Shown: positions 1,544-42,424 of the stretch, in pieces | Position numbering within the stretch: the first letter of the stretch is position 1 | Layout of the letters: every line of letters begins with the position of its first letter | Assembly: GCA_945905295.1 (NCBI GenBank) | Contig: CAMDPX010000038.1 | Location: 1 to 42,424 of the forward strand | DNA from: Planctomyces sp. SH-PL62 | Lineage (GTDB): Bacteria; Planctomycetota; Planctomycetia; Planctomycetales; Planctomycetaceae | Reading direction: 5' to 3' | Length of the DNA stretch: 42,424 nucleotides | Notes under the pieces: generated by a model | What the model was told of the DNA's origin: nothing | Databases searched by the model: none | The model's input: the letters and a program-made list of their open reading frames with translations, nothing else | Program-made: the position numbers and the translations under genes

Positions 1544-4500
1544 TCAATTCTTCGTCACGGCCTCATCCAAATTCAGTAACGCGCGAGCAACCAGCGACCA
1601 AGCGGCGCGTTCGCTGGCGTCGCCCTCACCCGGCCCCGCGAGCGTTGCGGCATCGAGTTCTTTGGCGGCGAGTCGTTCACGTTGTGACTTGATGAACCGA
1701 CTGAGCATCACGACCTCTTCATCGGCCGGCGGTCGCGTGAGGCAGCGGCGGAAGAGTTCCACAAGTCTGACTTCATCGTTGCCGCTGATCGTCGCGAACT
1801 GGCGACCGAGCGCTTGCGAGGCTTCGGTGAAGACGACGTCGTTGAGCAACGTCAGCGCTTGCAGCGGCGTGTTTGAGACTTCTCGCCGCACGACGCACGC
1901 TTCGCCGCTGGGGGCGTCGAACGTCGTGAACATCGCAAACGGCGCGGTTCGCTTCGTGAACGTGTAGAGGCTGCGGCGATGCCGATCGAGTCCCTCGCTG
2001 ACCTTCCAGGCGAGTTGCCCGTAGGTGCCTTCGGTCGTGACGTTCGCCGGTTGCGGCGGAAAGACGCTCGGCCCACCGAGCTTGCGGCCGAGCAGTCCGC
2101 TGACGCTGAGCAATGAGTCTCGCACCGATTCGGCTTCCACGCGGAATCGTGGGCCGCGCGCGAGCAGTTCGTTTTGCGCGTCCCGTTTCAGCAACTCTGG
2201 AGTGACGCGGCTCGACTGTTGATAGGTTGCGCTGGTGACGATCAAGCGGTGCAGGCGTTTGAGCGAGTAGGTCAGGCTTTCCAGCCTGACCCGATCGGCG
2301 TTCGACGTCGATGGAGCATTCGGGTCAGGCTGGAAAGCCTGACCTACGAAACCCACCGCCAGCCAATCGAGCAACTCTGGGTGCGACGGCAGCGCGCCTT
2401 GGAAGCCGAAGTCTTCTTGCGTGCGGACGATTCCCCGTCCGAAGAACGTCGCCCAATGGCGGTTGACGGTGACTCGCGCGGTCAGGGGGTTGTTCGGACT
2501 AATCAACCATTGCGCGAGTGCGGCTCGGCTTGTCGGGCTGTTGTTCGGCAACGCGGGCAGGAATGACGGGACGCTCGGTTCGACTTGTTCTTTGGGTTGC
2601 AGAAATTCGCCGCGATGATGGCGATGCGTCGGACGCGGGTTGTTGTCGGGACGTTCTTGCATGACGAGAGACGTCGGCAACGTCGGTCGTTGAGATCGCA
2701 AGTTCTCGATCGCTTGCCGCTCGGCCGCGAGTTCGGGCGCGATCGTGACAAAGTATTGCTTGAGCCGCTTCAAGTACGGCACGTCAGCGGATTGCTTCTC
2801 TGGCTCATTCAGAGGTGACTCATTCGCGGAAGGAACGGTGACATTCCCGCCGTTCGTCGATGCACGGGCTCGCAAGCTACGCAAACTCAACAATGCGGAT
2901 TCGACTTCGTTCGGCAGGAACGGGGCCTCCGCGGCGGATGGATGAGTGGTCACGGAAATGCGGAAGCGGCCGATCGCGGGGGCGTAGTAACGCTCGAAGA
3001 GCATCAGCAGTGTGAAGCTCTTCGACGTCAGCGGTTCGGACAGTGCGAAGACTGCGGCGTGCGGTTTGCCTTGCCCGCCGTTGATGGACCAGCCGGTCTG
3101 TTTGTTATCGTCGAGCGCGGCCATCGCGTTGCTGTTGCCACTGGCGAAGGATTGGGACGCGCGAATAAATCGAGCCCCGCCACCGGGAGCCGCGATCGCG
3201 ATGTTGCTCAAGAAGAAATCACCGAACGGACCTTCGTAATAGACTCGGCCAGGACCGTGCTTCGGCAGGCGATCATCCGGCAAGGCTTCGAGTCGGACAG
3301 CGGTGATGCCATCAGGGACATTTTCAAAGGCGACGACATATTGATCGCTCTTGGAAATATCGCCGCTCGAAAAGACCGAACCGTCCGCCTCAATCGTCAG
3401 CAGCGGCAGGTTGCTTTTCGCGGAGACCGGCCGGAGTGGCATCCAGCTCACGGCGGACTTCTCGGCGGAGGCGAGCCAGGCGTTGAACTTTTGATCGAAG
3501 TGCCGCTGTCGCTGTTCAGCGGCCGAACCGTTGACCGAGTTCCGTCGGCCGAAGCTGATGCGAAACTTGCCGAGCGTGTGCGTCATGCCGTGTTGTTGTT
3601 CGAGTCGGATCGTCCAGCGCGCCGTCTTGTCCGCGAAGCCAGCCGGCTGCGCGAGCACGAAAGTCGCCGTGCGGTTCACGTTCCAATGACCGGGTCCATG
3701 AATCGCCCAGCCGCCGGTCTTCGTGTTGCCGTCGATCGCTTGAGCCGCATCGAATTTCTCCTGCGAGAAGTCGGCAGAGGCGTTGGCGAATTTGAGTTGC
3801 TGAATTTCGCCTGGCACATCACGAGTCACAATCGACGCGGTGATTTCGCTGAGCACGAAGTTGCCGTGCGGCGTGCGACCGGGGCCTTTGCTCGGCAGCT
3901 TGTCGTCGATCAACGCTTCTAGTCGGATCGCCGCGACATCCTTGAGGTCACTGTCGAGTTGAACCTCATACGAGTCGGTTTCGGGGTTCGGTCCACTGAG
4001 CAGCACGCTGGCGTCGGATTGAATCTCCGCAGCCGCACCGTTGGCAGAAATCACGGCGACTGGCTTGAGCGGCGTCCATGTGAACTCATCTAGCAGCGGG
4101 AACCGATTCGGCAGGTCGGCTTCGAGTTCGGCGATACGCCGGTCAATCTCGGCTTGCTTGGCGACGAGGTCGGGGACCGGGATGTCGAACTCCGGTTCGT
4201 CGGCGTTGTTGAGCAATCCGAAGAAGCGGTAGTAATCGGTGTGCGTGATTGGGTCGAACTTGTGCGTGTGACATTGAGCGCACCCAATCGTCAGTCCCAG
4301 CCAGACCGAGCCGGTCGTGGCGACTCGGTCGGTCATCGCGTGGAAGCGGAACTCCAGCGGGTCGATGCCTCCCTCTTCGTTGAGCATCGTGTTGCGATGA
4401 AAGCCGGTCGCGATCCGCTGCTCGACCGTCGCGTTCGGCTGCATGTCGCCGGCAAGTTGAGCCATCGTGAATTGATCAAACGGCAGGTCGGCGTTGATCG

Positions 4501-5308: not shown

Positions 5309-5366
5309 GTAGGTTGGGACTCCGTCCCGACCCCAATCGTCTGGTCGGGACGGAGTCCCAACCTAC
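5309..5366. repeat. GTAG-footed palindrome (family B, GGTTGGGACTCCGTCCCGACC)
   Basis: Two facing hairpins, 5309-5333 and 5343-5366, with GTAG at both outer ends. It sits one base beyond the stop codon of the acyl-CoA synthetase and upstream of the cytochrome gene start, both on the minus strand. Copies at 30348-30395 (intergenic) and 40932-41004 (in frame in a gene). It may terminate synthetase transcription. Confidence 0.88.
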
Positions 5367-7221: not shown

Positions 7222-7292
7222 TTGTGCGATTCTTTCGCCACGCGAAGATTACTGGCCACCATTTCAATCGAGGTCATTGCTGGAGAACTGCC

Positions 7293-8465
7293 ATGAACGA
7301 TGTCGTCATTCTTTCCGCCTGTCGCACACCGATCGGTAAGTTTCAGGGAACGTTGTCGTCGCTCTCGGCGACCGATCTGGGCGCACCTGTCGTGCGCGCG
7401 GCGATTGAACAAGCTCGCGTCACACCGGAGCGCATCGACGAGGTCATCCTGGGCAATGTGCTGGCCGCGGGAGTCGGACAAGCACCCGCTCGGCAAGCGG
7501 CGTTGCGAGCGGGGCTGCCGCCGACGGTCGCGGCGTTGACGATCAATAAGGTCTGCGGCTCCGGCTTGAAGGCGATCATGCTGGCGGCTCAAGCGATTCG
7601 CGCTGGAGACGCGGACGTCATTGTGGCCGGGGGCATGGAGTCGATGAGCCGTGCTCCGTATTTGTTGGAACGCACAGGGCCTCCGTTGGGTGATCGAAAG
7701 CTGCTCGACGTGCTGCTGCAAGATGGCCTGACGTGTCCATTCAGCGGACGCTCGATGGGACAAGTTGCGGAAGCACTCGCCAAGTCCGATGGGCTGACTC
7801 GTGAAGATCAAGACGGGTACGCCGCAGAGAGCCACCGTCGAGCCGTCATCGCGATCGCACAAGATCTGTTCGATCTCGAAGTCGTCCCTCTGACGGTCAT
7901 GCAGCGCAAAACGGAAATCGTGATGACGCGCGACGAAGGGCCACGCGCCGAAACGACCTGCGAACAACTCGCGCGACTGGCTCCTGTCTTCGATGCGGCT
8001 GGCACGGTCACGGCCGGAAACGCCTCGACGATCAGTGACGGAGCGGCCGCCGTCGTGGTTGCATCGCGAGCGTTTCAGGAGGCTCACGGACTGACGCCCC
8101 TGGCTCGCATCGTGGCTTACGCGACCGCGGGGACGGAACCGGGCGATCTGTTTGTGGCCCCGGTCGCCGCCATCACGAAGGCGCTGCACCGCGCCGGTGT
8201 CGCGATCAACGACGTGGATCTGTTCGAGATTAATGAAGCCTTCGCCGCTCAAATGCTGGCGTGCGTGCGGCGGTTACAACTGCCGCTGGAAAAGGTGAAC
8301 GTCCACGGGGGAGCAATTGCGCTCGGGCACCCGCTGGGAGCTAGCGGCGCGCGAGTCGCCACGACGTTGTTGCATGCACTGCGACAGCGTCACCAGCGAT
8401 GGGGTGTCGCGGCGCTGTGTCTCGGCGGCGGGAACGCGGTCGCGTGCGTGTTGGAATGCTTGTAG
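7293..8465 (+). CDS. Thiolase (acetyl-CoA C-acetyltransferase type)
   Basis: 390 residues, a typical thiolase length. The ATG at 7293 is favoured over an in-frame ATG at 7224 because GGAG precedes it and the protein then starts [17 protein letters not shown], the normal family beginning. Active-site motifs: [10 protein letters not shown] with the nucleophilic cysteine near residue 88, [30 protein letters not shown] with the catalytic histidine, and the C-terminal CLGGGNA with the second cysteine. Family knowledge: thiolase II condenses two acetyl-CoA or cleaves acetoacetyl-CoA; thiolase I works in beta-oxidation, and sequence alone does not separate them. The neighbouring acyl-CoA synthetase suggests fatty-acid degradation. 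The TAG stop is supplied by the GTAG foot of a palindromic element. Confidence 0.95.
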
Positions 8466-8514
8466 TGACCCGATTCATCGGGTCGGGGTTCGACCCCATG
8501 AATGGGGTCACTAC
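8462..8514. repeat. GTAG-footed palindrome (family C, TGACCC-type)
   Basis: Hairpin TGACCCGATTCATCGGGTC after GTAG 8462-8465, and a second facing hairpin ending in CTAC 8511-8514. It overlaps the thiolase stop codon and lies between convergent genes, so it may work as a shared terminator. The two hairpins differ in the stem (CGATTCATCG against CCATTCATGG), yet both still pair. Confidence 0.87.
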
Positions 8515-11026: not shown

Positions 11027-12874
11027 CTAGGGTTGCTCGATTTCCTTCGGTTCCGGCAGCTTGAGTTCCGGCAAATCTGGTGCGGGTGCGGGTGCGGGTA
11101 CGTTCGCCTCAATCACGAGTCGCAGTTCTCGCACGAAGACTTGCAGCGCGGCGTGCGTGGTGCCGAAGGTTGGCTCTTGCGAGACGACTTGAAATTGTTC
11201 GTCGGTCTTCACGCGATCGAACTTCGCGAGCAGCTTTTCAAAGCGGACCAATCGTTCGGGCATTTCGAGCTTCTCTTCTTCTTCGGTCCCCACCAACCAT
11301 GCGACTTGCAAGTAGTCTTTCCAACGCTCACCGGTCGGCCATGTCTTGAGCTGTTGAGTCAGCAGGTCCGCCGATCGCGAGAGCCGGCCGCGGGCTTGGC
11401 CAATCGGCTCGCTGGCGAATTCGCGGAGGCCGGCTTGCAGCGAGCGGAAGCTCAACAGTTCGGAGACGGGGCGATAGTCCGGGTTCTCCGCGACTTCGTC
11501 GAACAACTCGACCACACTTCGCAGACGAGCGCGAGTGATCTGTTCCGTCGGCTCGTCTCCCTCGCCGATGAGCTTCGCGGTGGTCGCCAGTTGCAGTTGC
11601 CGCGACCAATCGTCGCCGTTGGGCGAGCGTGCGAAATCGTCTTCCAGGGCATTCAGCGCTTGCAGCAGCAACTCGCGTTGGCGAGCGATCGGTAACATCG
11701 AAAAATCTTCGTTCGTCGTTCGAACGGGCTGCGGCAGCGGTGCAGGGGCGACATTCACCGGGGCAGGAGCATTGATCACAGGTCCGTAGGTTTGAGCGGG
11801 CACGTAATAAGTATTGTTGTTCCAGCCGCCATACGTTCGGCCGTAACCCGGCCCGTACCAGCCACGGCCCACCGGTGCCGCACCGCCGAGGATGATCAAC
11901 GACCAGTTTGTCCGATTGGAGTTGCCGTAATGATTGTGATTGTGATCGTCACGATCGTGACGGTCATGATCGCGGTTGGGGGCCGGCTTGCTCGCAGGCT
12001 TGTTAGCGGGCCTGGAAGTCACCGGGTGTTGATGCCCGGCATCGGGTTTCAAACCACCAAGAATGGGGTTCGTCGTTGGCTGTCCGTTGACCAGAGCTCC
12101 GATCGGCGGAATCCTTCTGTTCGTCTCAAATTTTGGAGCCGTCGGCAGCGGCTTGCTCGCCGTGTGTTTGTGGTCGGCGGCCTTCTGCGGTGCAGGACGC
12201 GCGGGTTGGCCGGCGTTCGGTGCCGGAGTATTCGGCGCGGGAAGCGGGCTCAGAGCTGTCCCTGTTTTGTTCTCCGGAAGTGCCGGAGGAACGTTCGGCG
12301 CTGGGTTCGGCGCGGCTTTAGGAACATCCGGTTGCCGGTTCGGCCGCGAGCGATCATTCCTTGGCGCATCGGCTGGCTTGGGAGAGTCCGCTGGTTTCTG
12401 CGGTACGAGGTTGGTCGCCGGCGCGGGAGCTGGCTTTAGCAACGGCGCGGGTGTTGGCGCGGATGTCGGTGCAGGCGCAGGGCCGAGTGCAGGTTTTTGA
12501 ACCGGTGCAGGTGCAGGTGCAGGTGCAGGTGCAGGTGCAGGTGCAGGTGCAGGTGCAGGTGCAGGTGCAGGTTTTTGAGCAGGCGTTGGAGTCGGTGCCG
12601 GTATCGGTTTTTGAACCGGTGCCGGAGTCAGTGCCGGTGCCGGTTTTTGAACCGGTGCGGGTGCCGGTGCCGGTTTCGGGACTGGCGCAGGTGTTGGCTT
12701 CTGAACTGGCGCGGGAGCCGGCCTCGGGGCCGGTGCTGGCGCTGGTCGTGGTGCTGGCGCTGCGGGAGTGGCTTTGGGAGGATTGTCCTTTGGTTTCCCT
12801 TTGTCTTTGTCCTTCGCGATGGCAACGGTGCAAGTCAGCCCGAGCACGACGGCAGTGAACCAAGCTTTGGACAT
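11027..12874 (-). CDS. Secreted Pro/Ala-rich protein with helical C-terminal domain
   Basis: 615 residues from ATG 12872-12874. A signal peptide occupies about residues 1-20 (MSKAWFTAVVLGLTCTVAIA). Next comes a long low-complexity region rich in PAPAP and VQKP repeats (about 35-200), a Pro/Asn/Lys-rich segment, a His/Asp-rich patch (DRHDRDDHNHNHYGNSNR), a Gly/Tyr-rich stretch, and finally a charged helical domain of about 220 residues. I do not recognise a named family for the C-terminal domain. The proline region looks like an extended spacer through the cell envelope, an inference from composition only. Part of the Pro/Ala region is encoded by a pure hexanucleotide array, so allele length is expected to vary. 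The His/Asp patch could bind metal. Confidence 0.82.
   Translation of the reverse strand: MSKAWFTAVVLGLTCTVAIAKDKDKGKPKDNPPKATPAAPAPRPAPAPAPRPAPAPVQKPTPAPVPKPAPAPAPVQKPAPALTPAPVQKPIPAPTPTPAQKPAPAPAPAPAPAPAPAPAPAPAPVQKPALGPAPAPTSAPTPAPLLKPAPAPATNLVPQKPADSPKPADAPRNDRSRPNRQPDVPKAAPNPAPNVPPALPENKTGTALSPLPAPNTPAPNAGQPARPAPQKAADHKHTASKPLPTAPKFETNRRIPPIGALVNGQPTTNPILGGLKPDAGHQHPVTSRPANKPASKPAPNRDHDRHDRDDHNHNHYGNSNRTNWSLIILGGAAPVGRGWYGPGYGRTYGGWNNNTYYVPAQTYGPVINAPAPVNVAPAPLPQPVRTTNEDFSMLPIARQRELLLQALNALEDDFARSPNGDDWSRQLQLATTAKLIGEGDEPTEQITRARLRSVVELFDEVAENPDYRPVSELLSFRSLQAGLREFASEPIGQARGRLSRSADLLTQQLKTWPTGERWKDYLQVAWLVGTEEEEKLEMPERLVRFEKLLAKFDRVKTDEQFQVVSQEPTFGTTHAALQVFVRELRLVIEANVPAPAPAPDLPELKLPEPKEIEQP
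12504..12571. repeat. Hexanucleotide microsatellite (GGTGCA)x11
   Basis: About eleven uninterrupted copies of GGTGCA on the plus strand, read on the minus strand as alternating Pro-Ala codons inside the secreted protein. A six-base unit keeps the frame whatever the copy number, so slippage would change spacer length only. Confidence 0.92.
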
Positions 12875-20281: not shown

Positions 20282-20869
20282 CTATTGTGGTGCGGGGGTC
20301 TCGTCGGCACCGAGTCCCGCGCCGAATTCATCCTCGTCCGCTGGGGAGGGGGGTTGCGGCGACATCGCTGGCCTGGGGACAGGCACCGCAGAATTCAGAA
20401 TTGGCGGAATTGAACTGGGAGCTGAACTCAGGCTCTGATCCGCCAATTCTGAATTCTGCGGTGCCTGACCCCTGTCTGCGGGAGCAACGGGATCCTTCAT
20501 CACCGCGAGTTGCGTCTCTGGCGGTCGCAGTTCACGCGGCGGTTCGTCCTGACGTCGTTCGTCACGGTCGGGGCGCGGTGGCCGATTCCGCGATCGCGAT
20601 CCACCGTCGGAATCCGAAGAGACTAACGGCGAACTCAGGCGTGGAATCTCCTCGCCCCCCTGAATACGGTCGACCACGGAGCGCAGCTCCGGCCGCAGAT
20701 GAAGTCGACCTGGCCGCTGCCCTTCATTGAGCTTCATCGGCACGCCGTCACGCACGCAAAAGCAGCGCGGCGCGGTGATGTCCGTCGGCCAGCGTTGATT
20801 ATGCCCGCAAGTCGGGCAGCGCCACGCGCGACGCACATCAATTTCGATTCGTAATCCCGGACCTTTCAT
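20282..20869 (-). CDS. Small zinc-ribbon protein with disordered tail
   Basis: 195 residues, ATG 20867-20869 with GAGGAAA upstream. The N-terminal 50 residues contain CPTCG (C18, C21) and a CFC pair further on, consistent with a zinc ribbon. The rest is rich in Arg, Pro, Asp and Ser and looks disordered. I do not recognise the family and do not assign a function. It ends 39 bases before uvrA on the same strand, so the two may be co-transcribed. Its tail contains an inverted repeat translated in frame, reading GQAPQNSELA on one side and PPILNSAVP on the other. Confidence 0.7.
   Translation of the reverse strand: MKGPGLRIEIDVRRAWRCPTCGHNQRWPTDITAPRCFCVRDGVPMKLNEGQRPGRLHLRPELRSVVDRIQGGEEIPRLSSPLVSSDSDGGSRSRNRPPRPDRDERRQDEPPRELRPPETQLAVMKDPVAPADRGQAPQNSELADQSLSSAPSSIPPILNSAVPVPRPAMSPQPPSPADEDEFGAGLGADETPAPQ
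20375..20472. repeat. 34-base inverted repeat (GGGGTCAGG type) inside the zinc-ribbon gene
   Basis: Arms 20375-20408 and 20439-20472 pair with one mismatch. Both outer ends read GGGG(A/T)CAGG, the same foot as the element at 20939-21064. It is in frame and encodes part of the disordered tail. Confidence 0.9.
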
Positions 20870-20938
20870 CGTGTTTCCTCGCGGGGCGTACTCTCGCGGG
20901 CAACCCAGTGATTCTCAAGCGACCGTTTGAGCCGATCA

Positions 20939-21064: not shown

Positions 21065-21163
21065 GGCTCCACCGACCCCGTCGCGCTTTCCGCTCAACGG
21101 ACTCGCCACTACCTTCCCGCCCTTCCAAAGGCATCACGGTTTTTCGGGCCAGGGACGTTCCGC

Positions 21164-22051
21164 ATGAGTCGCATCTTGGTGGTCGAGGACAGTTGGACTC
21201 AAAGCACGGCCTTAAAAGGGACGTTGGAGTCTCATGGCTTTGAAGTGACGGTCGCCGAAAACGGCATGGCGGCGCTCGAAGCGATCAGCCGCCAAGCGCC
21301 ACACGCGGTGCTCACGGACTTGCTGATGCCGGTCATGAATGGCTTGGAATTGGTCGAACAGATTCGCAAACGCTTCCCGCGCGTGCCGACAATCCTGATC
21401 ACGGAATACGGCAGCGAAGAGGTCGCGGCCGAAGCCTTGCAACGTGGAGCGGCCGGGTACATCCCCAAACGCCGCATCGGAACAGACCTGGTTCCTTCGT
21501 TGGAGCGCGTCTTAGGAATCGCCAAGGCCAACCCGCGGCATCAAAAACTGATCGATGGACTCGTGACGAATGAGCTGCGATTTGTCCTCGACAATGACCT
21601 ATCGGTGGTGCCGCATCTGGTGTCGCACCTGCAAGACTGCGTCGGCTTGATGCGATTGTGCGATGAGACGGCTCAACTGCGTTTGGGCATCGCGCTCTCG
21701 GAAGCGATGACCAACGCGATCTATCACGGCAACCTGGAACTGAGCTCCGAACTCCGCAACAGCGACGGTCGCAACTGGTTCGACTTTGCGTTGAGCACGG
21801 CCCAAGACCCGGCCTTTCGCGACCGCAAAGTGCATGTGCTGGCGAGCCTCTCACGCGATTCCGCCAAGTTCGTCATCCGCGACGAAGGCCCCGGCTTCGA
21901 TCCCAGCACGCTCCCCGATCCGCGTGACCCCGCCAACCTCGCCAAATCCAGCGGACGCGGACTGCTCCTGATTCATTGCTTCCTCGATGAGGTTCATCAC
22001 AACCAAACCGGCAATGAAATCACGCTGATTAAGCGACGCGACCCCTCGTAG
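21164..22051 (+). CDS. Response regulator with RsbW-type ATPase output domain
   Basis: 295 residues, ATG 21164 with AGGGA eight bases upstream. Residues 1-120 are a receiver domain: acidic pocket E8/D9, phospho-acceptor D52 in LTDLLMP, the ILITEYGS switch region, and lysine in GYIPK. Residues about 150-290 are a GHKL-type ATPase of the anti-sigma/serine-kinase group: N-box EAMTNAIYHGNLEL, G1 box DEGPGFDPSTLP, and G2-like SSGRGLLLI. Family knowledge: RsbW-type domains phosphorylate anti-sigma-factor antagonists or bind sigma factors. Inference: a phosphorelay controls a partner-switching sigma-factor pathway. No cognate kinase, STAS protein or sigma factor is in the window. The TAG stop comes from the foot of a palindromic repeat. 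Confidence 0.9.
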   Translation: MSRILVVEDSWTQSTALKGTLESHGFEVTVAENGMAALEAISRQAPHAVLTDLLMPVMNGLELVEQIRKRFPRVPTILITEYGSEEVAAEALQRGAAGYIPKRRIGTDLVPSLERVLGIAKANPRHQKLIDGLVTNELRFVLDNDLSVVPHLVSHLQDCVGLMRLCDETAQLRLGIALSEAMTNAIYHGNLELSSELRNSDGRNWFDFALSTAQDPAFRDRKVHVLASLSRDSAKFVIRDEGPGFDPSTLPDPRDPANLAKSSGRGLLLIHCFLDEVHHNQTGNEITLIKRRDPS

Positions 22052-22129
22052 GTCAGGCTTTCCAGCCTGACCCCAATACGCCAAACCGCGTCGCTAGGCG
22101 ATCAGGTCAGCCTGGAAAGGCTGACCTAC
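22048..22129. repeat. GTAG-footed REP pair (family A) supplying both stop codons
   Basis: Left hairpin 22048-22072 has stem AGGCT-TTCC-AGCCT; right hairpin 22105-22129, read on the minus strand, has the swapped stem AGCCT-TTCC-AGGCT. GTAG stands at each outer end. The left GTAG gives the TAG of the response regulator, and the right one gives the TAG of the convergent ceramidase-like gene. Confidence 0.92.
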
Positions 22130-23661
22130 GAACTCCACTCCGCCAACTGTTGACCGATCGCGTCGGTCAGCGATTCCAAACTGCCCGGAGCCGTCAGCGC
22201 GACTTCCGGCTGATAGAGCTGCGTCTTCGAGTACGCCTCGCGCGTCGGCAGGTAACTGCAATTCGTCCCATTGCCCAACGTAATCGCGATCAGCGGCCGA
22301 CGCGGGAAGCGTCGCATCAACTCAGACTGCAAGAAGTGATACGGCTCCCCCTCGACGGCGATCCAAAACGCATCTCCCCATTGCCATGCCCAAGCGGGAC
22401 AAGGATACGTCTCGCCCTGAGGCAACGGTCGAATGCGGTCCAGCAACCGCCGTTGCCGTTCGACTTTCGCCCGCAAGATCGCGACTTCATCGAGCCGCCC
22501 GGCCGCGTGAGCCGCTTGTTCGGCCGCAATCAATTCGCGATGCAGCGGTTCGGCTTCGGCGAGTTTCGGCAGCGAAGCGAGATACGGCAACTGCACCGTC
22601 AGCGCGGCCCGTTTCGCGAGCGATGTACTCGCGCGTCGCGTGGCATCCCAAGATTGATGCCGCCAATTGCCGAGCGTCGCTCCGGAATACACCGGCCCGA
22701 CATAAACGTGATCGGTCTCGGCTGGATTCATCCCCGCCAGAACACTCAGCGCCGCGAATCCGACTTGCCGGCCATTCCGATCCGCGACCAATGTGTCGCC
22801 GACATAGCCGTCCCGCGGCCCGATATCCCCACACGGTGCGAGCAAGAAGAGACACGGCGCATTCGTTTCCCGCTCGACAACCTCACGCAACGCGCCGACG
22901 TAATCGGGACTGATCAGCGTGTTCTCCCAAGCCAGCGTCGTCGTGTGACACGGATAATTCACAATCGTCGCTCGTAGCACAGGCGGCTCGCCTGTGAATG
23001 GCAGGCGAGCCGCCTGCCCTACATCTGTCGTCACACGCACAACATTCAGCGGCAACGGTTCCGCCTCATCGGGATTGAAGCCACAGACATAATGCCCGCG
23101 TTCCTCGTCGAGGTAATCGCGCTGGCAACCCATCTCGCAGGTTGTCGAACCATACGTCAGCGTCGCCGGTTGCGAGTTGGCTTGCGCCGCTCGGAACGCT
23201 TCCGCAATCTTGGCCGGCAGACTGTCGAGATACGGGCCGATCAATTCGCCTCCTGGAAAATCGGCGCGGTCCCGCGACAGATATCCCGCCGAGTGCGTGT
23301 GTGAGAACGTGACCAACAACTCAGACCGACTCAATCCGGTGAGCCGGCAGGTTTCGCTAAGCAACGCTTCCATTTCCGGCGCACGCAGCAAGCAGTGATC
23401 GAGCGACACGAGCACCGTTTGCGTGGGGCACGTTTCCAACGTGCCCGTCGCAGGCTGGCCGGGCACGTTGGCAACCCGCCCCACGATCGGCCGCATCACC
23501 ACGACGGTGGTTCGCAGCGGCCGATGAATACCGGTCGAGCGATCATGCGACGCCGCGCCCCACATGCGGTGATACATCCCGACCGGCGGCGTGATGTCAG
23601 TCCAAGCGATGCCAAACTCGCACCGCGACGACGGACTTTGAACAATCGCTGTGCTGGGCAT
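22126..23661 (-). CDS. Neutral/alkaline ceramidase-like secreted-family protein
   Basis: 511 residues from ATG 23659-23661, chosen over an ATG at 23703 because GGGGAGG stands at good distance. The N-terminal GIAWTDITPPVGMYHRMWG and the later VTFSHTHSAGY motif (zinc-binding histidines in this family) fit the neutral/alkaline ceramidase N-terminal domain, as do NYPCHTTTL and APCGDIGPRDGYVGD. Family knowledge: neutral ceramidases cut the amide bond of ceramide; many bacterial relatives in planctomycetes have unknown substrates, so the specific reaction is uncertain. No clear signal peptide is visible in the chosen start. Two palindromic elements are translated in frame (VGQAARLPFTGEPPVLRAT and GRVANVPGQPATGTLETCPT). 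Confidence 0.82.
   Translation of the reverse strand: MPSTAIVQSPSSRCEFGIAWTDITPPVGMYHRMWGAASHDRSTGIHRPLRTTVVVMRPIVGRVANVPGQPATGTLETCPTQTVLVSLDHCLLRAPEMEALLSETCRLTGLSRSELLVTFSHTHSAGYLSRDRADFPGGELIGPYLDSLPAKIAEAFRAAQANSQPATLTYGSTTCEMGCQRDYLDEERGHYVCGFNPDEAEPLPLNVVRVTTDVGQAARLPFTGEPPVLRATIVNYPCHTTTLAWENTLISPDYVGALREVVERETNAPCLFLLAPCGDIGPRDGYVGDTLVADRNGRQVGFAALSVLAGMNPAETDHVYVGPVYSGATLGNWRHQSWDATRRASTSLAKRAALTVQLPYLASLPKLAEAEPLHRELIAAEQAAHAAGRLDEVAILRAKVERQRRLLDRIRPLPQGETYPCPAWAWQWGDAFWIAVEGEPYHFLQSELMRRFPRRPLIAITLGNGTNCSYLPTREAYSKTQLYQPEVALTAPGSLESLTDAIGQQLAEWSS
22974..23022. repeat. GTAG-footed palindrome (family E) inside the ceramidase-like gene
   Basis: GTAGCACAGGCGGCTCGCCTGTG at 22974-22996 faces a sibling hairpin 23000-23022 ending CTAC. 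Both hairpins share the GGCGGCTCGCC core. Read in frame on the minus strand as VGQAARLP...VLRAT. Confidence 0.9.
23423..23484. repeat. GTGG-footed palindrome (family F) inside the ceramidase-like gene
   Basis: GTGGGGCACGTTTCCAACGTGCCC starts at 23423, with a degenerate facing copy ending CCAC at 23481-23484. In frame it encodes GRVANVPGQPATGTLETCP near the N-terminus of the ceramidase-like protein. Confidence 0.82.
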
Positions 23662-23744
23662 CAGAACCTCCCCGCTAAGAATTGAGAAAACTTGTGATGC
23701 CAAAGTAAATCCACCAGTCCCCCGACCAGCAAGTCATGGAATTC

Positions 23745-23771
23745 GTAGGTCAGGCTTTCCAGCCTGACCCG
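23745..23771. repeat. Single GTAG-footed REP hairpin (family A) before a transposase remnant
   Basis: GTAGGTCAGGC with stem AGGCT-TTCC-AGCCT, identical to the left arm at 2267. Only one hairpin is present here. It stands about 40 bases upstream of the RAYT remnant, the arrangement expected of a RAYT gene flanked by its own REP sequences. Confidence 0.88.
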
Positions 23772-23809
23772 AACAACCACCGACCACCATTCCTCCTCCA
23801 ATCAATTCC

Positions 23810-24185
23810 ATGCGACCCACCAACCCCACCAGCGAAATCGATGAGCGACACCTGCCGCATCAAATTCCCGAAGGACTCCCAATCTTCATCACCTGCAGCA
23901 GCAACGAGACCGCGTCTTCTGGCAGGACGAATCGTACGACTAGTTCGCGATTTCTTGTCGGATCGCGCGCATTTTGTAGAACGGACAATCCTGTCCGTTG
24001 TGCAGTCTGTAGAACGGACAGGATTGACCGTTCTACTTTTGGGTTGCGGCGGAACCGCGTCGGACGACCATTGGCCGCGCGACGAAGCCGAGTTCGTTCG
24101 GATCAACGCCTACATCGAGAACAATCCAGTCACCGCCGGCGTAATCGTTCACGGAGTTCGTCAAGTCGCCGAGACCAAGACGTGA
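23810..24185 (+). pseudogene. REP-associated tyrosine transposase (RAYT) remnant
   Basis: Three pieces of one RAYT-like protein lie in three frames. The start MRPTNPTSEIDERHLPHQIP... continues as EGLPIFIT from ATG 23810 (frame 2). QQQRDRVFWQDESYD follows at 23896-23940 (frame 1) and then meets TAG. DDHWPRDEAEFVRINAYIENNPVTAGVI runs in frame 3 to the stop TGA 24183-24185. RHLPHQIPEG, VFWQDESYD and YIENNP are typical of Y1/RAYT proteins, but the middle with the HUH metal motif and catalytic tyrosine is absent, so an internal deletion is evident. About 120 bases, including a second GTAG-type palindrome (23976-24036), separate pieces two and three. It cannot be active. Recognition is from remembered family motifs, not a search. 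Confidence 0.78.
23976..24036. repeat. GTAG-footed palindrome (family G) inside the RAYT remnant
   Basis: GTAGAACGGACAATCCTGTCCGTT at 23976-23999, then GTAGAACGGACAGGATTGACC from 24009 to CTAC at 24033-24036. It interrupts the transposase remnant between its SYD and DHW motifs. Confidence 0.87.
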
Positions 24186-27500: not shown

Positions 27501-30328
27501 CTGCCGGCGGTTCGATCACTTTCCAAACGTTGGGGGATCCCGGCAGCCGGCGATTCATTGTGCAGTTCACCGCCATTCCACACTTCCGGGAAGGCAATCC
27601 GGTGACGTTCCAATTCAAGTTGTTCGAAGGCTCGAACAACATCGAGGTGCATTATCTGTCCGTCCCCTCGGACGGTGACCTGCACGTCGCCGGCGTTGAG
27701 AACGCCGCCGGAAATGTGGGGGTGCAGTTCTTCCAAGGGAACAGCTCCTTGCCGTCGAATTCCGCCGTCCTTTACACACCGGCGCCGTTGAGTGACGAAG
27801 GTGGTGTCACGTTTTTGTCGTCATTGCTGGCGAGTCCTTCGGCCGCCACCACGGCCTCCGTCGCGATTGATTTACAGAACGCGAACCCGACCTCCAACCT
27901 CCTGGATGCCTGGCTCGACCTCAACCACGACGGCGATTGGGACGACCTCAATGAACAGATTCTGGTCTCTTTCAACTTGGGGACAACCAACGGCCGGCAA
28001 GTCGTCCAGTTCACGATTCCGCGAGACACCGGAACGAACGTCGAAGCGGGGACGACGTTCGCACGCTTCCGTTTGAGCACGGGAGGAGAACTGCTCCCCA
28101 CCGGGTTCGCCGGCAATGGCGAGGTCGAGGATTATCAGGTCACGATCACGCAGACGGGCGGCACCAACACCGTCGATTTGCTGCCCGGCAACACGATTCT
28201 TGATCTCTTCAACGGCAACGTTCGCGTGCGCGATGCGGTCACCGGTGCGGTCATTTCAAGTGTCCCGATCACCGAGACCACCAATTTGGTCTTCAACGGC
28301 GCGGCGAACGACGACGACACGTTGACGCTCGATTTTTCGACCGGGAATCCCCTTCCGGCGGGCGGACTGACCTTCAATGGCGGAGCCGACGGTAACGACA
28401 AGCTGACCGTGATTGGCGACAACCGTGATGACTCGGTGAATTACACACCCGGCTCGGTCAACGGATCAGGCACATTGTCTTTCAACGACGGTACGAACAG
28501 TCGCACGATCACGTTTACGGGATTGGAACCGGTCGACATCACGGCCATGGCGTCCGTGACGGTCAGCGGCTCGTCCGGTGCGGACCTCTACACGTTGACG
28601 AATGGCGTCGATGCGACGATGGGCGGAGCCAATGCGGCGTTCGTCGTGTCGGGCACGCGAAACGGCGTGACGATCGAGTCCGCTCACATTTTTAACGTTG
28701 ACTCATTGACGATCGACACCGGCGCGGGCAACGACAAGTTGACGGTCGATTTTTCGAACGGGAATCCGCCTCCGCCAGGCATTGTGAATTTCAATGGCGG
28801 AGCCGGCGGCAACGACAAGCTGGCCGTGATTGGCGACGCCATCGATGACTCGGTGAATTACACACCCGGCTTGGTCACCGGCTCAGGCACGTTGACCAAC
28901 AACGACGGCACGAACAATCGAACGCTCACGTTTACGGGATTGGAACCGGTCGACATCACAGGCATGGCGTCCGTGACGGTCAGTGGCTCGTCCGGCGCGG
29001 ACAACTACACGTTGTCGAACGGCGTCGACACGACGATGACCGGACTCATTCCGGCCATTGTGGTGTCGGGCACTCGGAGCGGTGTGACGATCGAGTCTGC
29101 TCACGTTTTTAATGTGGGTTCATTGACGATCGACACGGGAGCCGGCAATGACACCATCAGCGCGTCCGCCATCAATCGGGCTGTTGTGCTCAACGGCGGA
29201 GCTGGTAACGACACGCTCACCGGAGGGACCGGTAACGACACGCTCAGTGGCGGTGCCGGCAAGGATTCTCTGAACGGTGGCGCGGGCATCGACACGGTTG
29301 CCGAAACAACGGCCAATGACGTGATGATGCTCACGAACACACAACTGACCGGAAACGGGACCGACAGACTGACCAACATCGAACGTGCCCTGCTCAGCGG
29401 TACGGCGGGGAACGAAACGCTGGATGCGTCGGCCTTCACGCTCGGCAACGTCACGCTGTTGGGTGGCGCGGGCAACGACACACTGATCGGCGGCGCGTTT
29501 ACTGGAGCCGCCGACGGCGATGAACTCAACGATTCTCTGGATGGCGGCGCGGGAGTCGATGTGGCGCGGCAATTCTCTTCGGCCATGCTGCAGGATTTCA
29601 CTGCCGACACCAATGTCGTCCGCGGCGCGGGCAATGACCGATGGACGTTGATCGAGGGCCTGCATTTCATTGGCATCGGCAACGCAAAAATGAAGCTCGA
29701 TGCCTTGGAGTTCATCGGGAGCGTGACGCTGTCCGGCGGCACCGGCGACGACGAGTTGATCGGTGGCAGTCGTAACAACGTCCTCAACGGCAACGCGGGC
29801 AACGATACTCTGACGGGGGGGAACACTGCGGACATGCTCAGCGGAGGAGCCGGCAACGACAGCCTCGTGGGCAATGGCGGCAGCGATCTGCTCAATGGCC
29901 AAGCCGGCAGCGACACGCTGCGCGGCAACGCGGGTGATGACCACCTGATTGGCGAAGCGGGGAACGACAAACTCTTCGGTGGCAGCGGCAACGATCTCAT
30001 GGATGGGGGCGCGGGCAGCGACGTCCTCACGGGCGAATCCGGCGATGACTCGATCAATGGCGGCGAGGGCAGCGACGCGATCAGCGGCGGAGACGGCAAC
30101 GATTTCCTCAACGGCGGACTCGGCAACGATACGATCCTCGGCGGCAGCGGTGCCGATGTCTTACGAAGCGGTGGCGGGTCTGACCGGCTCGCGGGGGGCA
30201 GCGGCGACGACCGCTTCGTGGCCTCCGGTTCGCGCATCAGCCTGGGCGGAGGGAACGACACTGTCAGCGGCTCAGGTAACACGATCGACGCGCTCTTCAC
30301 CTTTGATTTCGAGAGGCTGCTCGTGTGA
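24587..30328 (+). CDS. Giant exported protein: beta-propeller, GEVED and RTX calcium-binding repeats
   Basis: 1913 residues, ATG 24587 with GAGGAG upstream. There is no classical signal peptide; the N-terminus has an Arg-rich stretch and then EQLEDRSLLS, a motif I associate with large exported planctomycete proteins. Residues about 70-810 contain repeated units such as GGIWKTTNATSASPTWSPL and LLRTTDGGATWTPLDGG, typical of BNR/sortilin-like beta-propellers. Residues about 825-1190 hold an FSFEDISSTGT...SNGFLSF domain and a GEVED domain (GNGEVEDYQV). Two nearly identical 139-residue modules follow, then from about 1520 many GGxGND nonapeptides of RTX type, expected to bind calcium and fold outside the cell. 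Likely a cell-surface or secreted adhesion/structural protein; no enzymatic site was recognised. Confidence 0.93.
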   Translation: MLIPQWLQGFAGRILRTRQRTNSFARHGSTGGTSLAARGGSWMVTSHGATGSPDFSQIVEQLEDRSLLSAWIAEGPGPSQNGQVEGILNQEVVGAVHAVAAHPSDADTLYIGTANGGIWKTTNATSASPTWSPLTDNNESLSIGALEFDPTDGTNQTLVAGVGNYSSFAGIGGPKAGLLRTTDGGATWTPLDGGGTLDGKNINGVAARGSTITVSVNFADSFSPNDAGIFRSIDTGATFTQISNGNGAVTGLPGGATFDVAGDPSNANTLYTAVVSADFFGGLNGIYKSVNGGANWSKISNAAMDALIISDTTNNIEIDVGNSNNVYVGIINFGQLAGLFRSGDGGGSFTQLDTPVTNEDGTDVGINPRPRRNGTPGGQGATHFSIVADPTNANVVYVGGDRQPRTFGDAGSFPNSLGANDFSGRLFRVDASLAMGSQAVALTHVNTTSNSAPHADSRDMVFDAIGNLIEVDDGGIYRRTTPSMNTGDWFSVIGNLQNAEQHDLAYDTLSNILISGNQDTGTTFQLAEDGTTWFSLHTGDGGDVAVDNFTLAGSNQSIRYTSFQNLGAFRRTVWDAAGALVSTDFPNLTVIGGGAAFEPQFVTPIALNVVDSQRLVFVGSNSVYESLNQGETITEINDGGIFTGGFLEESVAYGHATNADVIYVGVESDVLLRTTAGGTLTETATQFPGSTVSDLVLDSVAADDQSVFVADDNSVFITTDAGGGWTDITGNLAALGALAFETLVFVPGTVGNAIVLGTQTGVYFATSANFMSWSELGTGLPNAIVHDLVYDAADNVLAAGTLGRGAWTLSNATGELGIGSPNPPVLNLDFGDAPDPTYPTLLVNDGARHVAIGPRLGSARDFELDGQPNATATGDDIATALSTYAASAATFSFEDISSTGTIVSLDDDVFSSLIALPFNFDFFGSLKTDLFICSNGFLSFSGDSPSLSPTSIPNANTPNDFIAGWWNDLNPAAGGSITFQTLGDPGSRRFIVQFTAIPHFREGNPVTFQFKLFEGSNNIEVHYLSVPSDGDLHVAGVENAAGNVGVQFFQGNSSLPSNSAVLYTPAPLSDEGGVTFLSSLLASPSAATTASVAIDLQNANPTSNLLDAWLDLNHDGDWDDLNEQILVSFNLGTTNGRQVVQFTIPRDTGTNVEAGTTFARFRLSTGGELLPTGFAGNGEVEDYQVTITQTGGTNTVDLLPGNTILDLFNGNVRVRDAVTGAVISSVPITETTNLVFNGAANDDDTLTLDFSTGNPLPAGGLTFNGGADGNDKLTVIGDNRDDSVNYTPGSVNGSGTLSFNDGTNSRTITFTGLEPVDITAMASVTVSGSSGADLYTLTNGVDATMGGANAAFVVSGTRNGVTIESAHIFNVDSLTIDTGAGNDKLTVDFSNGNPPPPGIVNFNGGAGGNDKLAVIGDAIDDSVNYTPGLVTGSGTLTNNDGTNNRTLTFTGLEPVDITGMASVTVSGSSGADNYTLSNGVDTTMTGLIPAIVVSGTRSGVTIESAHVFNVGSLTIDTGAGNDTISASAINRAVVLNGGAGNDTLTGGTGNDTLSGGAGKDSLNGGAGIDTVAETTANDVMMLTNTQLTGNGTDRLTNIERALLSGTAGNETLDASAFTLGNVTLLGGAGNDTLIGGAFTGAADGDELNDSLDGGAGVDVARQFSSAMLQDFTADTNVVRGAGNDRWTLIEGLHFIGIGNAKMKLDALEFIGSVTLSGGTGDDELIGGSRNNVLNGNAGNDTLTGGNTADMLSGGAGNDSLVGNGGSDLLNGQAGSDTLRGNAGDDHLIGEAGNDKLFGGSGNDLMDGGAGSDVLTGESGDDSINGGEGSDAISGGDGNDFLNGGLGNDTILGGSGADVLRSGGGSDRLAGGSGDDRFVASGSRISLGGGNDTVSGSGNTIDALFTFDFERLLV
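28313..29146 (+). repeat. Tandem duplication of a 417-base module inside the RTX gene
   Basis: Two copies offset by exactly 417 bases (139 codons), for example GATTTTTCGA at 28331 and 28748, and GACTCGGTGAA at 28430 and 28847. Both encode the LTFNGGA / NYTPG / TFTGLEPVDIT / SGTRNGVTIESAH pattern. High DNA similarity indicates recent duplication. Confidence 0.88.
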
Positions 30329-30347: not shown

Positions 30348-30395
30348 GTAGGTTGGGACTCCGTCCCGACTGGTCGGGACGGAGTCCCAACCTAC
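30348..30395. repeat. GTAG-footed palindrome (family B), intergenic
   Basis: GTAGGTTGGGACTCCGTCCCGAC followed almost immediately by its reverse complement, ending CTAC 30392-30395. It lies 20 bases after the RTX gene stop and may terminate its transcription. Confidence 0.9.
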
Positions 30396-31362: not shown

Positions 31363-31479
31363 GTAGGTCAGCCTTTCCAGGCTGACGGTGCGATATCGAC
31401 TGCCAAAGATAAGAAGAAACTTCTCGACAAGTTCAATGCGTTGTGGAGCAATTGAGTCAGGCTGGAAAGCCTGGCCTAC
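31363..31479. repeat. GTAG-footed REP pair (family A) with a 69-base spacer
   Basis: Left hairpin 31363-31386 (stem AGCCT-TTCC-AGGCT) and right hairpin 31456-31479 (stem AGGCT-TTCC-AGCCT read on the minus strand). GTAG is at both outer ends. The spacer reads in the GldA frame. The right end stops directly before the GAGGAA ribosome-binding site of the next gene. Confidence 0.88.
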
Positions 31480-34371: not shown

Positions 34372-34423
34372 GTAGCGGCCTCGCTCCGCGATGCCGATCC
34401 GAGTCGCGAAACGACTCGGCTAC
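34372..34423. repeat. GTAG-footed palindrome (family H), intergenic
   Basis: GTAGCGGCCTCGCTCCGCGATGCCG (34372-34396) followed by CGAGTCGCGAAACGACTCGGCTAC (34400-34423). The second hairpin pairs well and the first is weaker. GTAG stands at both outer ends. It lies inside the GldFG/DUF4340 operon gap. Confidence 0.8.
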
Positions 34424-39453: not shown

Positions 39454-39481
39454 CAAATGGTCTCACGAGCAGGGCGGCAAT

Positions 39482-39999: not shown

Positions 40000-40060
40000 T
40001 GGAAAGTCCTCGGTTGACCGTCGTGGCCAGAACGACTTTATCACTGCAATCGGTTCGCGA

Positions 40061-42424
40061 CTACTTGCAGTTCTTTAGGAACGCGATCAGGTCGGCGAGT
40101 TGTTCTTTCGTGAGTTGCTTGTCCAAACCGGCGGGCATGATGGAGATGCTGCTGGGTTTCATCTCTTCGATGTCGGCGCGAGCGACTCGTTCTTCTTTGT
40201 TGGGGCCGGTGGCGATGACGAGTTCGTCGGGGGTCTCGCTGCGGATCAGGCCGTTCACGGTTTTGCCATTGGTGGTGACGATCAGAACCGGCTCGAAGCT
40301 GCGGACGAAGCTGGCGGAGGGGAACAGGATCGATTCGAGCAAGTCCCGTTCGTTGCGGATGCCGCCGATGCGCGTCAGGTCGGGGCCGGTCTTGCCTCCG
40401 AGATAGCCGAGCGCGTGACAGGCTTTGCAGGCGGCCTTCTCGTTGTGGAAGACTTGCTGGCCGCGCACGATGTCGCCGGGTGGCAGCGAGGTAAGCATCT
40501 CTTCCAACTGCTGGCGTTGCTTGCCGAGATCCACGTTGAGCGCGGCGTACAATGGCTGCGCGGCTTCTTGGACAGACGGGCTGTATTTCGCCAGCCGCGT
40601 CTTGATCGCATCGACTCGCAGAGCCGTCAGCGCGGGAGCGGTTTTCAGCGCGGCGATGAGTTTTTGGCCGACTTGCTCGTCGGTCGATTGCTCGTACGCG
40701 CCGAGCAGCCGATCGACTTCGAGCGGGCCAGCGGTGGCGAATTGCTCGGTCAGTCGCGTGAGTTGGGCTTTCGAGAGCTTCGCTTTCGAGAACACTTCCG
40801 CCGCGGTGCCTCGTTGAACCACGGAAAGCTCGGAGGCGAGTTGGCTGAGCAAGAAGTCGAAGAGTTTGTCGTCGGCTTCGTTCGCGGCGAGTCCGCCGGG
40901 CAAAGCGGCGAGGGCGGCAAGGCGGATCGTCGTAGGTTGGGACTCCGTCCCGACCGCTTTGTTTGGTTGAGCGTCGATCGGGTCGGGACGGAGTCCCAAC
41001 CTACTTTGCACGGCCAACAGCGGCTTGCGCCATGCGGCTGCGTCCTCTTTCGCGGGGACGGTCACGCGGGCCGTGTTCACCGCGAGTGAGATCAGCGACA
41101 GGTCGTCTTCCCCGAGCACATTCAGCAGCGCGGCCGACCAGCTTCGCGGCAGTTCTTTGAGCTTCGAGTCCCGCATCGCGCCCAGCGCGGTGAGGCGTGC
41201 GGAGGTGGGCAGCTTCGTGTCGCGAACGGTCGCCGCCAACAACTCTTGGACCGAGGCGGCTTTCGCGAACTGAGCCAGTTGTTGGCCGAGCGTTTTTTGC
41301 TCGGCGTCGGTCAGTTCGCCGGCGGCCAATCGCTCGCGGAGGTAGCCGGCCAGCGCTTCGCCCCAATCGGCGTGCCGGCTGATGATCCACGCCGCCGTCT
41401 CCCGCAACAGCGGCTCCGGCGAGGTCAAATGCTTCGCCACCTCCTCCGGCTTCAACCCGCCGTTCGGCATCTGGTCGAGGGCTTTGAGTGCGAGTGGCTT
41501 GGCATACATGAATTGTCCTCTTGACCGAATGATCCCCGTAGCCGGGTCAGGCTTCGGCCAAATGAAATTGCGAAGTGGTTTTGCTTGGCCAAGCTCGATC
41601 AGTGCAAAGCATGTCGAATGTTCAACAAAGCGGTCGTGTTCTTTGCTTGCATGCCAGAGTAGGTCGGGAGCAACGGAGGGGTCGCCAATGCGGCCTAACG
41701 CCTCAGCAACAACACGTTGTTTCGCCGGCGTGCCGCTGAGGTTCTCTTTGAGTTCGCGGACGGCCAACGGATCGCGCCACAGGCTGATGCTTTGAGCGGC
41801 AACTTGGCAGAGTTCCTCGTCTCCAGAACCCAGCTCGTACCGAGCTATCTCTCGCGCGGAAGGATGGTCAATTCGGGCAAGCACCCACAATCGCCGGCAG
41901 AGGTCGCCGTTCTTACCCCAGATGCGATCGTTTCGCTTGAACGCTGCAAGAAGTGCGGGAAGCGAATTCTCGCCTCGCTTCGCAAGCTCGTTTGATGCAC
42001 GTTGCCGAACGTGGGTTCGAGTGTCGTCGAGCAGATCAACCAACTGGTCCGTTGTCATTTGCGGCCAATTCATGCTCCGTCCGAACGGATCATTCACTCG
42101 TTGGGCGGAAGTCTTCCGCACCCGATAGATTGCCCCCAGCACGTCGGGCTTCGCCAACTGCGAGGTCGGGCAGCAGAGCTTGTACCAGCCGCCGGTGTCC
42201 ACGATCAGCAGGCTGCCGTCGGCGTCTTCCAGCACGTCGGTCGGGTGGAAGTCGAGGTTGTTCGAGACCACGAAGTCTTCCGCCTCGGTTTGGAACGTCG
42301 CTCCGTGAGGTTGCAGGACGTGGCGAGTCACCTTCCGCATGTTGAAGCAGCAGGCGAAGAGATTGTCTTGGTACTCGCGGCCCCAGGCGGAGGACTGCAA
42401 GCGTTCCAGGCCGCAGGGGGCGGC
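40061..42424 (-). CDS. PVC-type HEAT-repeat cytochrome protein, 5' end outside window
   Basis: The frame is open to the right window edge (AAPCGLERLQSSAWGREYQDNLF at the visible N-terminus). This part resembles the end of the PVC membrane-bound dehydrogenase propeller (FHPTDVLEDADGSLLIVDTGGWY). A HEAT-like helical region follows for about 480 residues. The C-terminus is a PVC-type haem domain: GQQVFHNEKAACKACHALG with CKACH, and SFEPVLIVTTNGKTVNGLI ending in LTKEQLADLIAFLKN. Family knowledge: such exported proteins are frequent in planctomycetes and are thought to oxidise sugars or alcohols with electron transfer through haem; the substrate is unknown. A family B palindromic element is translated in frame as RLGLRPDP...VGTESQPT within the HEAT region. 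Confidence 0.9.
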   Translation of the reverse strand, partial: AAPCGLERLQSSAWGREYQDNLFACCFNMRKVTRHVLQPHGATFQTEAEDFVVSNNLDFHPTDVLEDADGSLLIVDTGGWYKLCCPTSQLAKPDVLGAIYRVRKTSAQRVNDPFGRSMNWPQMTTDQLVDLLDDTRTHVRQRASNELAKRGENSLPALLAAFKRNDRIWGKNGDLCRRLWVLARIDHPSAREIARYELGSGDEELCQVAAQSISLWRDPLAVRELKENLSGTPAKQRVVAEALGRIGDPSVAPDLLWHASKEHDRFVEHSTCFALIELGQAKPLRNFIWPKPDPATGIIRSRGQFMYAKPLALKALDQMPNGGLKPEEVAKHLTSPEPLLRETAAWIISRHADWGEALAGYLRERLAAGELTDAEQKTLGQQLAQFAKAASVQELLAATVRDTKLPTSARLTALGAMRDSKLKELPRSWSAALLNVLGEDDLSLISLAVNTARVTVPAKEDAAAWRKPLLAVQSRLGLRPDPIDAQPNKAVGTESQPTTIRLAALAALPGGLAANEADDKLFDFLLSQLASELSVVQRGTAAEVFSKAKLSKAQLTRLTEQFATAGPLEVDRLLGAYEQSTDEQVGQKLIAALKTAPALTALRVDAIKTRLAKYSPSVQEAAQPLYAALNVDLGKQRQQLEEMLTSLPPGDIVRGQQVFHNEKAACKACHALGYLGGKTGPDLTRIGGIRNERDLLESILFPSASFVRSFEPVLIVTTNGKTVNGLIRSETPDELVIATGPNKEERVARADIEEMKPSSISIMPAGLDKQLTKEQLADLIAFLKNCK
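40932..41004. repeat. GTAG-footed palindrome (family B) inside the PVC cytochrome gene
   Basis: GTAGGTTGGGACTCCGTCCC at 40932 and its reverse complement ending CTAC 41001-41004. In frame on the minus strand it reads SRLGLRPDP and VGTESQPTT. Intergenic copies of the same family are at 5309 and 30348. Confidence 0.9.

Follow-up and report, generated by a model that had tools for sequence, protein, structure and literature searches.

Multi-family GTAG-footed REP-like palindromes and their putative RAYT lineages at gene ends and shared coding sites of a planctomycete genus

The DNA analyzed here, positions 1 to 42,424 of contig CAMDPX010000038.1 (C38) of Planctomyces sp. SH-PL62, is called the window at its whole length of 42,424 nucleotides. 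It comes from an assembly of 8.6 Mb in 476 contigs (97.2% complete, 1.4% contamination); all the genomes compared were draft assemblies. The window encodes planctomycete gene families such as PSCyt1 and PSD1, and a tRNA scan of it yielded none. Scattered through it are hairpins with the tetranucleotide GTAG at the outer foot, which the original prediction had listed at 11 loci and likened to the repetitive extragenic palindromic (REP) sequences of enterobacteria, the substrates of REP-associated tyrosine transposases (RAYTs). GTAG started each of the 11 coordinates, facing pairs (GTAG...CTAC outside) were present at ten, and six unrelated stem families were counted, in agreement with the description of usually two facing hairpins drawn from at least six families. 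A strict scan recovered an element at 11/11 loci and both arms at seven; imperfect arms were seen at 31363 and 23976, in the second hairpin, and at 34372, in the first.

Four loci carried the stem of the family named F1, GTCAGGCT: a facing pair of 81 bp at 2267..2347, in frame in a PSCyt1/PSCyt2/PSD1 gene (1544-5269, minus strand) and within its PSD1 domain; a facing pair at 22048..22129, lying between two convergent genes and supplying the TAG stops of both (21164-22051, plus; 22126-23703, minus); a lone hairpin at 23745..23769 (+), at the upstream end of a dead RAYT locus; and an intergenic pair with an imperfect right arm at 31363..31479. The F2 stem, GTTGGGAC, formed facing pairs at 5309..5366 and 30348..30395, both intergenic, and at 40932..41004, in frame in a HEAT/heme-binding gene (40061-42400, minus), where the pair separates the HEAT part from the C-terminal heme domain. 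Each of the remaining stems occupied one locus. A facing pair with stem TGACCC (8462..8514) had as its left foot the TAG stop of a thiolase gene (7224-8465, plus), and one with stem CACAGGCG (22974..23022) stood in frame within gene 22126-23703. The pair with stem AACGGACA (23976..24036), one side of which is imperfect and which has an extra GTAG inside, sat where the RAYT relic (23810..24146, +) lacks its middle, and the intergenic GGCxTCGC/CCGAGTCG pair at 34372..34423 combined an imperfect left stem (GGCCTCGC/GCGATGCC) with a right stem CCGAGTCG/CGACTCGG. Neither the dead RAYT nor the in-frame position of the coding insertions had been noticed in the original prediction, and its list lacked a lone GTGG-footed hairpin, GGCACGTTTCCAACGTGCC, at 23423..23446 (+), whose corresponding place in the relatives G010 and G006 held a full GTGG pair.

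The frequency of GTAG at hairpin feet was determined in a sample of 1,202,215 bases of the same genome, made up of the window and 60 stretches from contigs 1-19. Among 460 perfect hairpins, GTAG was the commonest four-base unpaired foot (n = 89, two feet being counted for each hairpin); when the foot was redefined to include the first base of the stem after three unpaired ones, it ranked third (n = 25), behind TAGC (n = 81) and GTGG (n = 47). When the first 20 stretches were shuffled, 61 hairpins resulted, and by both definitions GTAG was found at none of their feet. With less strict hairpin criteria, a hairpin began at 236 of the 2900 GTAGs (8.1%), and the figure for each of 12 other tags lay between 0.7 and 2.0%; TAGG reached 7.6%, an excess that probably marks GTAG sites shifted by one base. 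Facing pairs within 200 bp numbered 86 for GTAG and 31 for GTGG, compared with 0-4 for each of 12 other tags (total 8), and the arms were related in 112 of the 117 GTAG/GTGG pairs. The foot is thus enriched far above chance. The sample contained 147 GTAG elements, chance singles included (81 strict facing pairs, 64 single), that is, one element per 8 kb and one strict facing pair per 15 kb, so that the predicted density of about one locus per 4 kb is only local: the window is enriched, with seven strict pairs in 42 kb vs 81 in 1.2 Mb.

The families also have copies elsewhere, so that neither outcome by which the original prediction would have been refuted was observed. The F1 hairpin was counted genome-wide and occurred 270 times (136 + 134, at most two mismatches; reversed control, 0), and the other families were counted in the 1.2-Mb sample. 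The facing pairs of the sample fell into 16 GTAG/GTGG stem groups, with 25 pairs in a GTGG group, 23 in CTGAAGTCGCC and 14 each in F1 and F2, F1 not being the largest; the GTAG group richest in pairs was CTGAAGTCGCCAGACTTCAG and its kin (23 pairs), and TGACCC had 11. The GTGG-footed group, GGCACGTTTTCAACGTGCC and its kin, was as numerous as any GTAG group with its 25 pairs, and like hairpins were observed beside RAYTs in G001 and G006.

A codon-usage model was used to class the 81 facing pairs of the sample by their flanks: 37 had a flank not scoring as coding, 14 lay between same-strand coding flanks in another frame, seven between frame-matched flanks interrupted by a stop, 13 between frame-matched flanks that stay open, eight between convergent and none between divergent genes, and two at stretch edges. 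The pairs are mostly extragenic, with 13/81 in frame between coding flanks, 66 in the other classes and two at edges; since the 7:14 ratio is the chance expectation for tandem genes, the 13 open pairs stand out. An in-frame TAG ending an open coding frame was provided by 24 of the 160 feet examined, those of both convergent genes at 22048-22129 included. Hosts of the 13 open pairs include the window PSD1 and HEAT/heme genes, SecA, HypF, protein kinases, and DUF1501 and DUF7133 proteins. A Pfam check covering nine proteins with ten in-frame elements outside the window, plus the three window hosts, placed seven of the 13 elements in, or at the break of, a domain, while six hosts had no domain at the element (22974, 40932, L046:15042, L049, L054 and L072). 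In the DUF1501 and DUF7133 proteins the domain appears to break at the REP. When HypF was aligned to PDB 3vth, two conserved segments were separated by a gap at the position of the insert, and the SecA insert lay between the two stretches aligned to 6t4h. The predicted translations read VGQAFQPD...ESLTY for F1 and mostly RLGLRPD...VGTESQPT for F2, with 17-40 codons in all. One assignment is doubtful: L046:15042 was called in frame, but it covers residues 28-49 of its open frame, near the N-terminus; 81 bases were absent at this site in three relatives and the other five aligned only at shifted anchors, and it was kept out of the coding length test.

The same sites were compared across the genus by flank anchors, and four coding sites, three of the window and one in a second PSD1 gene (L046:17607), could be followed in 7-10 relatives. 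At the PSD1 site at 2267 (10 relatives), the F1 pair of this genome was shared with G006; G010 and G002 had a ACCGGTCACT/ACGAGTCACT pair and G001 had F2. The site was occupied by a non-GTAG palindrome in G005 and by AT-rich repeats in both G007 and G009; nothing similar was seen in G003, G008 and G011. The site at 22974 (10 relatives) held CACAGGCG here, GATGGGCACT-type elements in G010 and G002, and non-GTAG palindromes in G009 and G001; it was empty in the other six. The site at 40932 (seven relatives) was occupied by F2 here and in G006, by ACCGGTCACT/ACGAGTCACT in G009 and by non-GTAG palindromes in G007 and G005, with no intact pair in G001, G003 and G004; G011 could not be anchored. In the second PSD1 gene (eight relatives) an element or inverted repeat was present in 9/9 genomes, those of G003 and G011 being low-complexity. 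A kinase gene (L070:5399), comparable in one relative, was empty in G010. Length differences between genomes at these five coding sites were multiples of three in 36/36 comparisons (31/31 of the non-zero ones); at intergenic sites this was so in 21/51 (16/46 of the non-zero ones). The sites had been picked for read-through in this genome, a criterion that has no bearing on the frame in the others. Preservation of the frame indicates that the genes are real and under selection, and translation of the inserts would be the natural consequence.

Several other repeats were observed at these places. Long non-GTAG palindromes (GGCGAGCCGGGG...CCCCGGCTCGCC, ACACTAGCCCGACGCG... and GCGCTCGGCGCGGGTC...) stood in frame in L174, L176, L165, L169, L187 and L225, at positions orthologous to 40932, 22974, 2267 and L046:17607. 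Short-word low-complexity repeats (GATTTGAGATTTGAGATT, TCGATTTTCGATTTTCGATT and GGTCATTGATCTTTGGTCATTGATC), several of them inverted, occurred at the same intergenic and coding sites in L186, L100, L179, L231, L234, L237, L240, L223 and L228. At the intergenic site orthologous to 34372, a larger nested inverted repeat, of the type CCCCACCGGGCTTGCC...GGCAAGCCCGGTGGGG around CTCGCGGGCTTTTGCACTAC...GTAGTGCAAAAGCC, replaced the REP pair in five relatives (L172, L173, L175, L176 and L180). Two tandem arrays were also seen in the window, one of GGTGCAGGTGCA-type 12-mers (12444-12671) and one of 27-bp repeats of GGCGGxGCxGGCAACGAC type within an open reading frame of 1913 aa (29189-30156).

Shared coding sites of this kind could be true insertion targets, where each new element is drawn in by a favored sequence or by a hairpin already present, rather than tolerant loops. 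In each of the four genes, a palindrome occupies one particular site in 5-8 of the 9-11 genomes, and the palindromes at such a site belong to three or four unrelated types, with non-GTAG types among them. A search of the four well-compared genes for inverted repeats, blind to the foot (arms of at least 17 bases, placement by both flanks, length of at least 40 bases), found 33, with 23 at the four sites and two at a second shared site near 23420-23487. The remaining eight, however, lay elsewhere in those genes, empty orthologous sites had no common motif (by eye), unrelated classes of element used the same sites, and selection against insertion elsewhere in the protein would be expected to give the same picture. 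We therefore consider targeting unlikely, and infer that the shared coding sites reflect tolerance.

Transposases that could have spread the hairpins were looked for in the same genome, which gave 13 Y1-transposase matches. Two of them, the C225 and C147 RAYTs, are 85% identical, have an HVH motif and are flanked on both sides by GTTGGGAC hairpins; in each gene a GTAG foot supplies the TAG stop codon. The original prediction had proposed a search for intact RAYT genes with matching hairpins, and these two, for GTTGGGAC, were accompanied by others in relatives. The two proteins passed the cut-off of Pfam Y1_Tnp (26.4 and 25.9 bits; cut-off, 23) and matched NCBIfam REP_Tyr_transpos with E values of 9.8e-16 and 9.1e-14 (58 and 51.6 bits), below its cut-off of 80 bits, so that their RAYT membership rests on flanks and motifs. 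The C225 protein contains MPNHVH and YIARNP (read by eye), which we take to be the HUH motif and the catalytic tyrosine. The other matches were weak, IS200-like, or RAYT-like with no GTAG hairpins found within 500 bp; the IS200-like C390 had hairpins of other stems, upstream only. As a separate observation, in L024:2657-3979 and L025:3129-4112 (C222 and C288) a single reading frame runs from a Y1 transposase domain into a C-terminal stretch resembling DnaA (NCBIfam DnaA match below cut-off, E 3.4e-10 and 1.2e-7), with no GTAG hairpins within 500 bp.

Relatives of the C225 protein were found in 34/59 genomes searched, its own included. The hairpins beside them varied by lineage, with GTAG or GTGG constant, and RAYTs 85-96% identical to that of C225 carried its stem. 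From 118 loci given, 112 had a hit and 66 were kept after exclusion of partial matches and of flanks shorter than 250/200 bases, leaving 62 distinct full-length loci, mostly from planctomycetes and other non-gammaproteobacteria. One GTAG/GTGG hairpin family was present on both sides in 44/62 of them (46/66 before duplicate removal), representing 32 stem families; among 1500 random 690-bp spans, a control limited to the window's own genome, a single one was flanked likewise. In the 44 loci, the stem was shared by 10/16 RAYT pairs of at least 60% identity, 12/90 of 45-60% and 11/840 below 45%. This fall of stem sharing with RAYT identity supports several RAYT lineages, each with its own stem. 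The original prediction had offered two options, and the data favor several RAYT lineages; one enzyme class with several substrates fares poorly against the single-family flanks and the identity-dependent sharing.

The F1 family illustrates the fate of one such lineage. In G010, an intact RAYT flanked on both sides by F1 hairpins directly follows the ortholog of gene 22126-23703, and collinearity between the two genomes extends from window position 20513 to 23897, reaching the RAYT start. Matching to the intact G010 protein revealed the relic in the window: 23810-23905 corresponds to residues 1-32 (75% identical) and 24060-24146 to residues 164-192 (79% identical). The tyrosine region is kept and the central part, to which the HIH motif (residue 122) belongs, is missing, with the AACGGACA pair in the gap. 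A search of 12 genomes of the genus with the G010 protein returned close relatives without breaks from two genomes only, G010 itself and G007 (90%), the latter with F1 hairpins downstream only. In the window's own genome the relic was the only close match, the others belonging to distant lineages. In nine fetched stretches of other relatives (one from G007), homology to the left gene ended between 23628 and 23671, so that no RAYT was seen at that place there. As its own genome holds only a relic of the F1 RAYT, the F1 stem, with its 270 copies, is now probably an orphan that has outlived its enzyme.

A single generalist RAYT, acting on all stems through the GTAG foot alone, is in our judgment quite improbable. 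It would account for the constancy of the foot and for the 16 stem groups coexisting in the sample when, among the RAYTs found here, only GTTGGGAC flanks intact ones (1/16 groups). The single stem family on both sides in 44/62 loci, with 32 families among them, argues against it, as do the separate RAYTs elsewhere of stems orphaned here, namely F1 (G010 and G007), the GTGG stem GCACGTT (G001), GCGCACGCGGC (G010) and CCTGACTCTCC (L243). The idea that the hairpins are not mobile and are conserved as transcription terminators or RNA-processing elements is the least probable of all and was rejected: many do lie at gene ends (eight convergent and no divergent settings among the 81 pairs, though 37 had a flank not scoring as coding) and 24/160 feet supply stops, but of the 21 GTAG hairpins at the predicted loci only two had five T in the next eight bases, against 0-2 in 19, no Rfam family reached its gathering score in the window, some hairpins stand in frame within genes, and orthologous places hold mostly unrelated stems or none. 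Once inserted, the hairpins may have a role.

Foot enrichment, copies elsewhere and flanked RAYTs together bear out the REP identity that had been proposed: these are very probably REP sequences of many families, often in pairs resembling REPINs (REP doublets forming hairpins) or bacterial interspersed mosaic elements (BIMEs), each family spread by its own RAYT (TnpA-REP) lineage and surviving at gene ends and at tolerant coding spots. Each stem family would be, or would have been, carried by an HUH tyrosine transposase that binds the GTAG foot and the cognate single-stranded hairpin, cuts and rejoins the adjacent DNA and moves the pair, as the biochemistry drawn on from PMC8266576 suggests. 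The GTTGGGAC lineage retains its two RAYT genes in this genome, and of the GTCAGGCT enzyme only a dead relic was found. Copies would persist where they are least harmful: at gene ends, with the TAG of the foot often serving as stop codon, or at a small number of tolerant in-frame positions within proteins. At these positions they would add 17-40 codons, and unrelated palindromes fill the same positions in sister species.

Several observations weigh against this interpretation. Shared flanking hairpins were lacking, under the criterion used, in 18/62 RAYT loci. The strong REP_Tyr_transpos match at L026:3426-3980 (C166; 176 bits) had no GTAG hairpin within 500 bp, and neither the CTGAAGTCGCCAGACTTCAG group nor TGACCC resembled a stem next to any of the fetched RAYTs (best 0.5). 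The orphan status of F1 is provisional, because an assembly of 476 contigs may miss repeat-flanked RAYTs. At least seven relatives were comparable at four coding sites only. In 44 empty/occupied comparisons, from few independent sites (those in which the empty site retained between -30 and 20 bases and both flank alignments came within 8 bases), there was no target duplication, 1-18 target bases were replaced and no boundary was clean. The number of replaced bases is forced by the frame in coding sites, and therefore no mechanism was drawn; deducing the insertion chemistry from empty sites was rejected. Both the movement of REPs by RAYTs and the translation of the inserts into peptides are deduced from sequence.

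We also entertain, with considerable doubt, that certain protein sites of this genus act as exchange points, where palindromes of unrelated families are swapped in place, always in frame, so that REP-type elements would continually supply conserved enzymes (SecA, HypF, kinases and PSD1 proteins) with new peptide segments, some of which have perhaps gained a role. REPs are usually described as intergenic, and the genus would allow comparative tests of the fate of a REP family after the death of its transposase and of how mobile palindromes turn into protein parts. A warning for annotation also follows: RLGLRPD...VGTESQPT or VGQAFQPD...ESLTY tracts in planctomycete proteins may be translated REPs and not domains.

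The likeness to enterobacterial REPs that had been suggested holds by kind, with no closer relation. GTAG REPs have been described by Di Nocera, De Gregorio and Rocco (2013, PMC3733652), who, in the sections drawn on here, name planctomycete and verrucomicrobial members (R. baltica and O. terrae) and already report REP stop codons, intragenic REPs, dimers and several families per genome. Those families share with the present ones the GTAG foot at one end of the hairpin, head-to-head dimers, the location at gene 3' ends, the foot used as a stop codon and in-frame intragenic copies (their dimers, 20-30 codons). The one remark on a shared site in those sections concerns recB in two Xanthomonas, whereas here one genus was followed site by site, with unrelated palindromes and the frame kept throughout. 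The palindromic elements of Rickettsia (RPE, as described in the same paper) are likewise palindromic repeats in frame in protein genes; those of R. conorii have CGTC ends, and CGTC repeats are without a dedicated transposase, unlike the GTAG foot and RAYTs found here, and no facing pair with a CGTC foot was present in our 1.2-Mb sample. In the openly licensed PMC literature found, neither a genus-wide report of shared in-frame REP sites, whose absence is not claimed, nor a dead RAYT beside an orphan family in this group was encountered. Co-evolution of RAYTs and REPs is treated in PMC2817692, and the portion of PMC8266576 drawn on describes recognition of foot and hairpin by TnpA-REP, with GTAG guiding the choice of cleavage site in one enzyme. 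Like the RAYT/REPtron systems of these two papers, the loci studied here have an HUH tyrosine transposase gene between cognate REPs, a GT(A/G)G head and joint lineages; they differ from those described in coming mostly from planctomycetes and other non-gammaproteobacteria, in their 32 families in 44 loci and in a 270-copy stem with only a relic of its enzyme. What is new here relative to this literature is the unusually clear sharing of coding sites and a sharper evolutionary picture.

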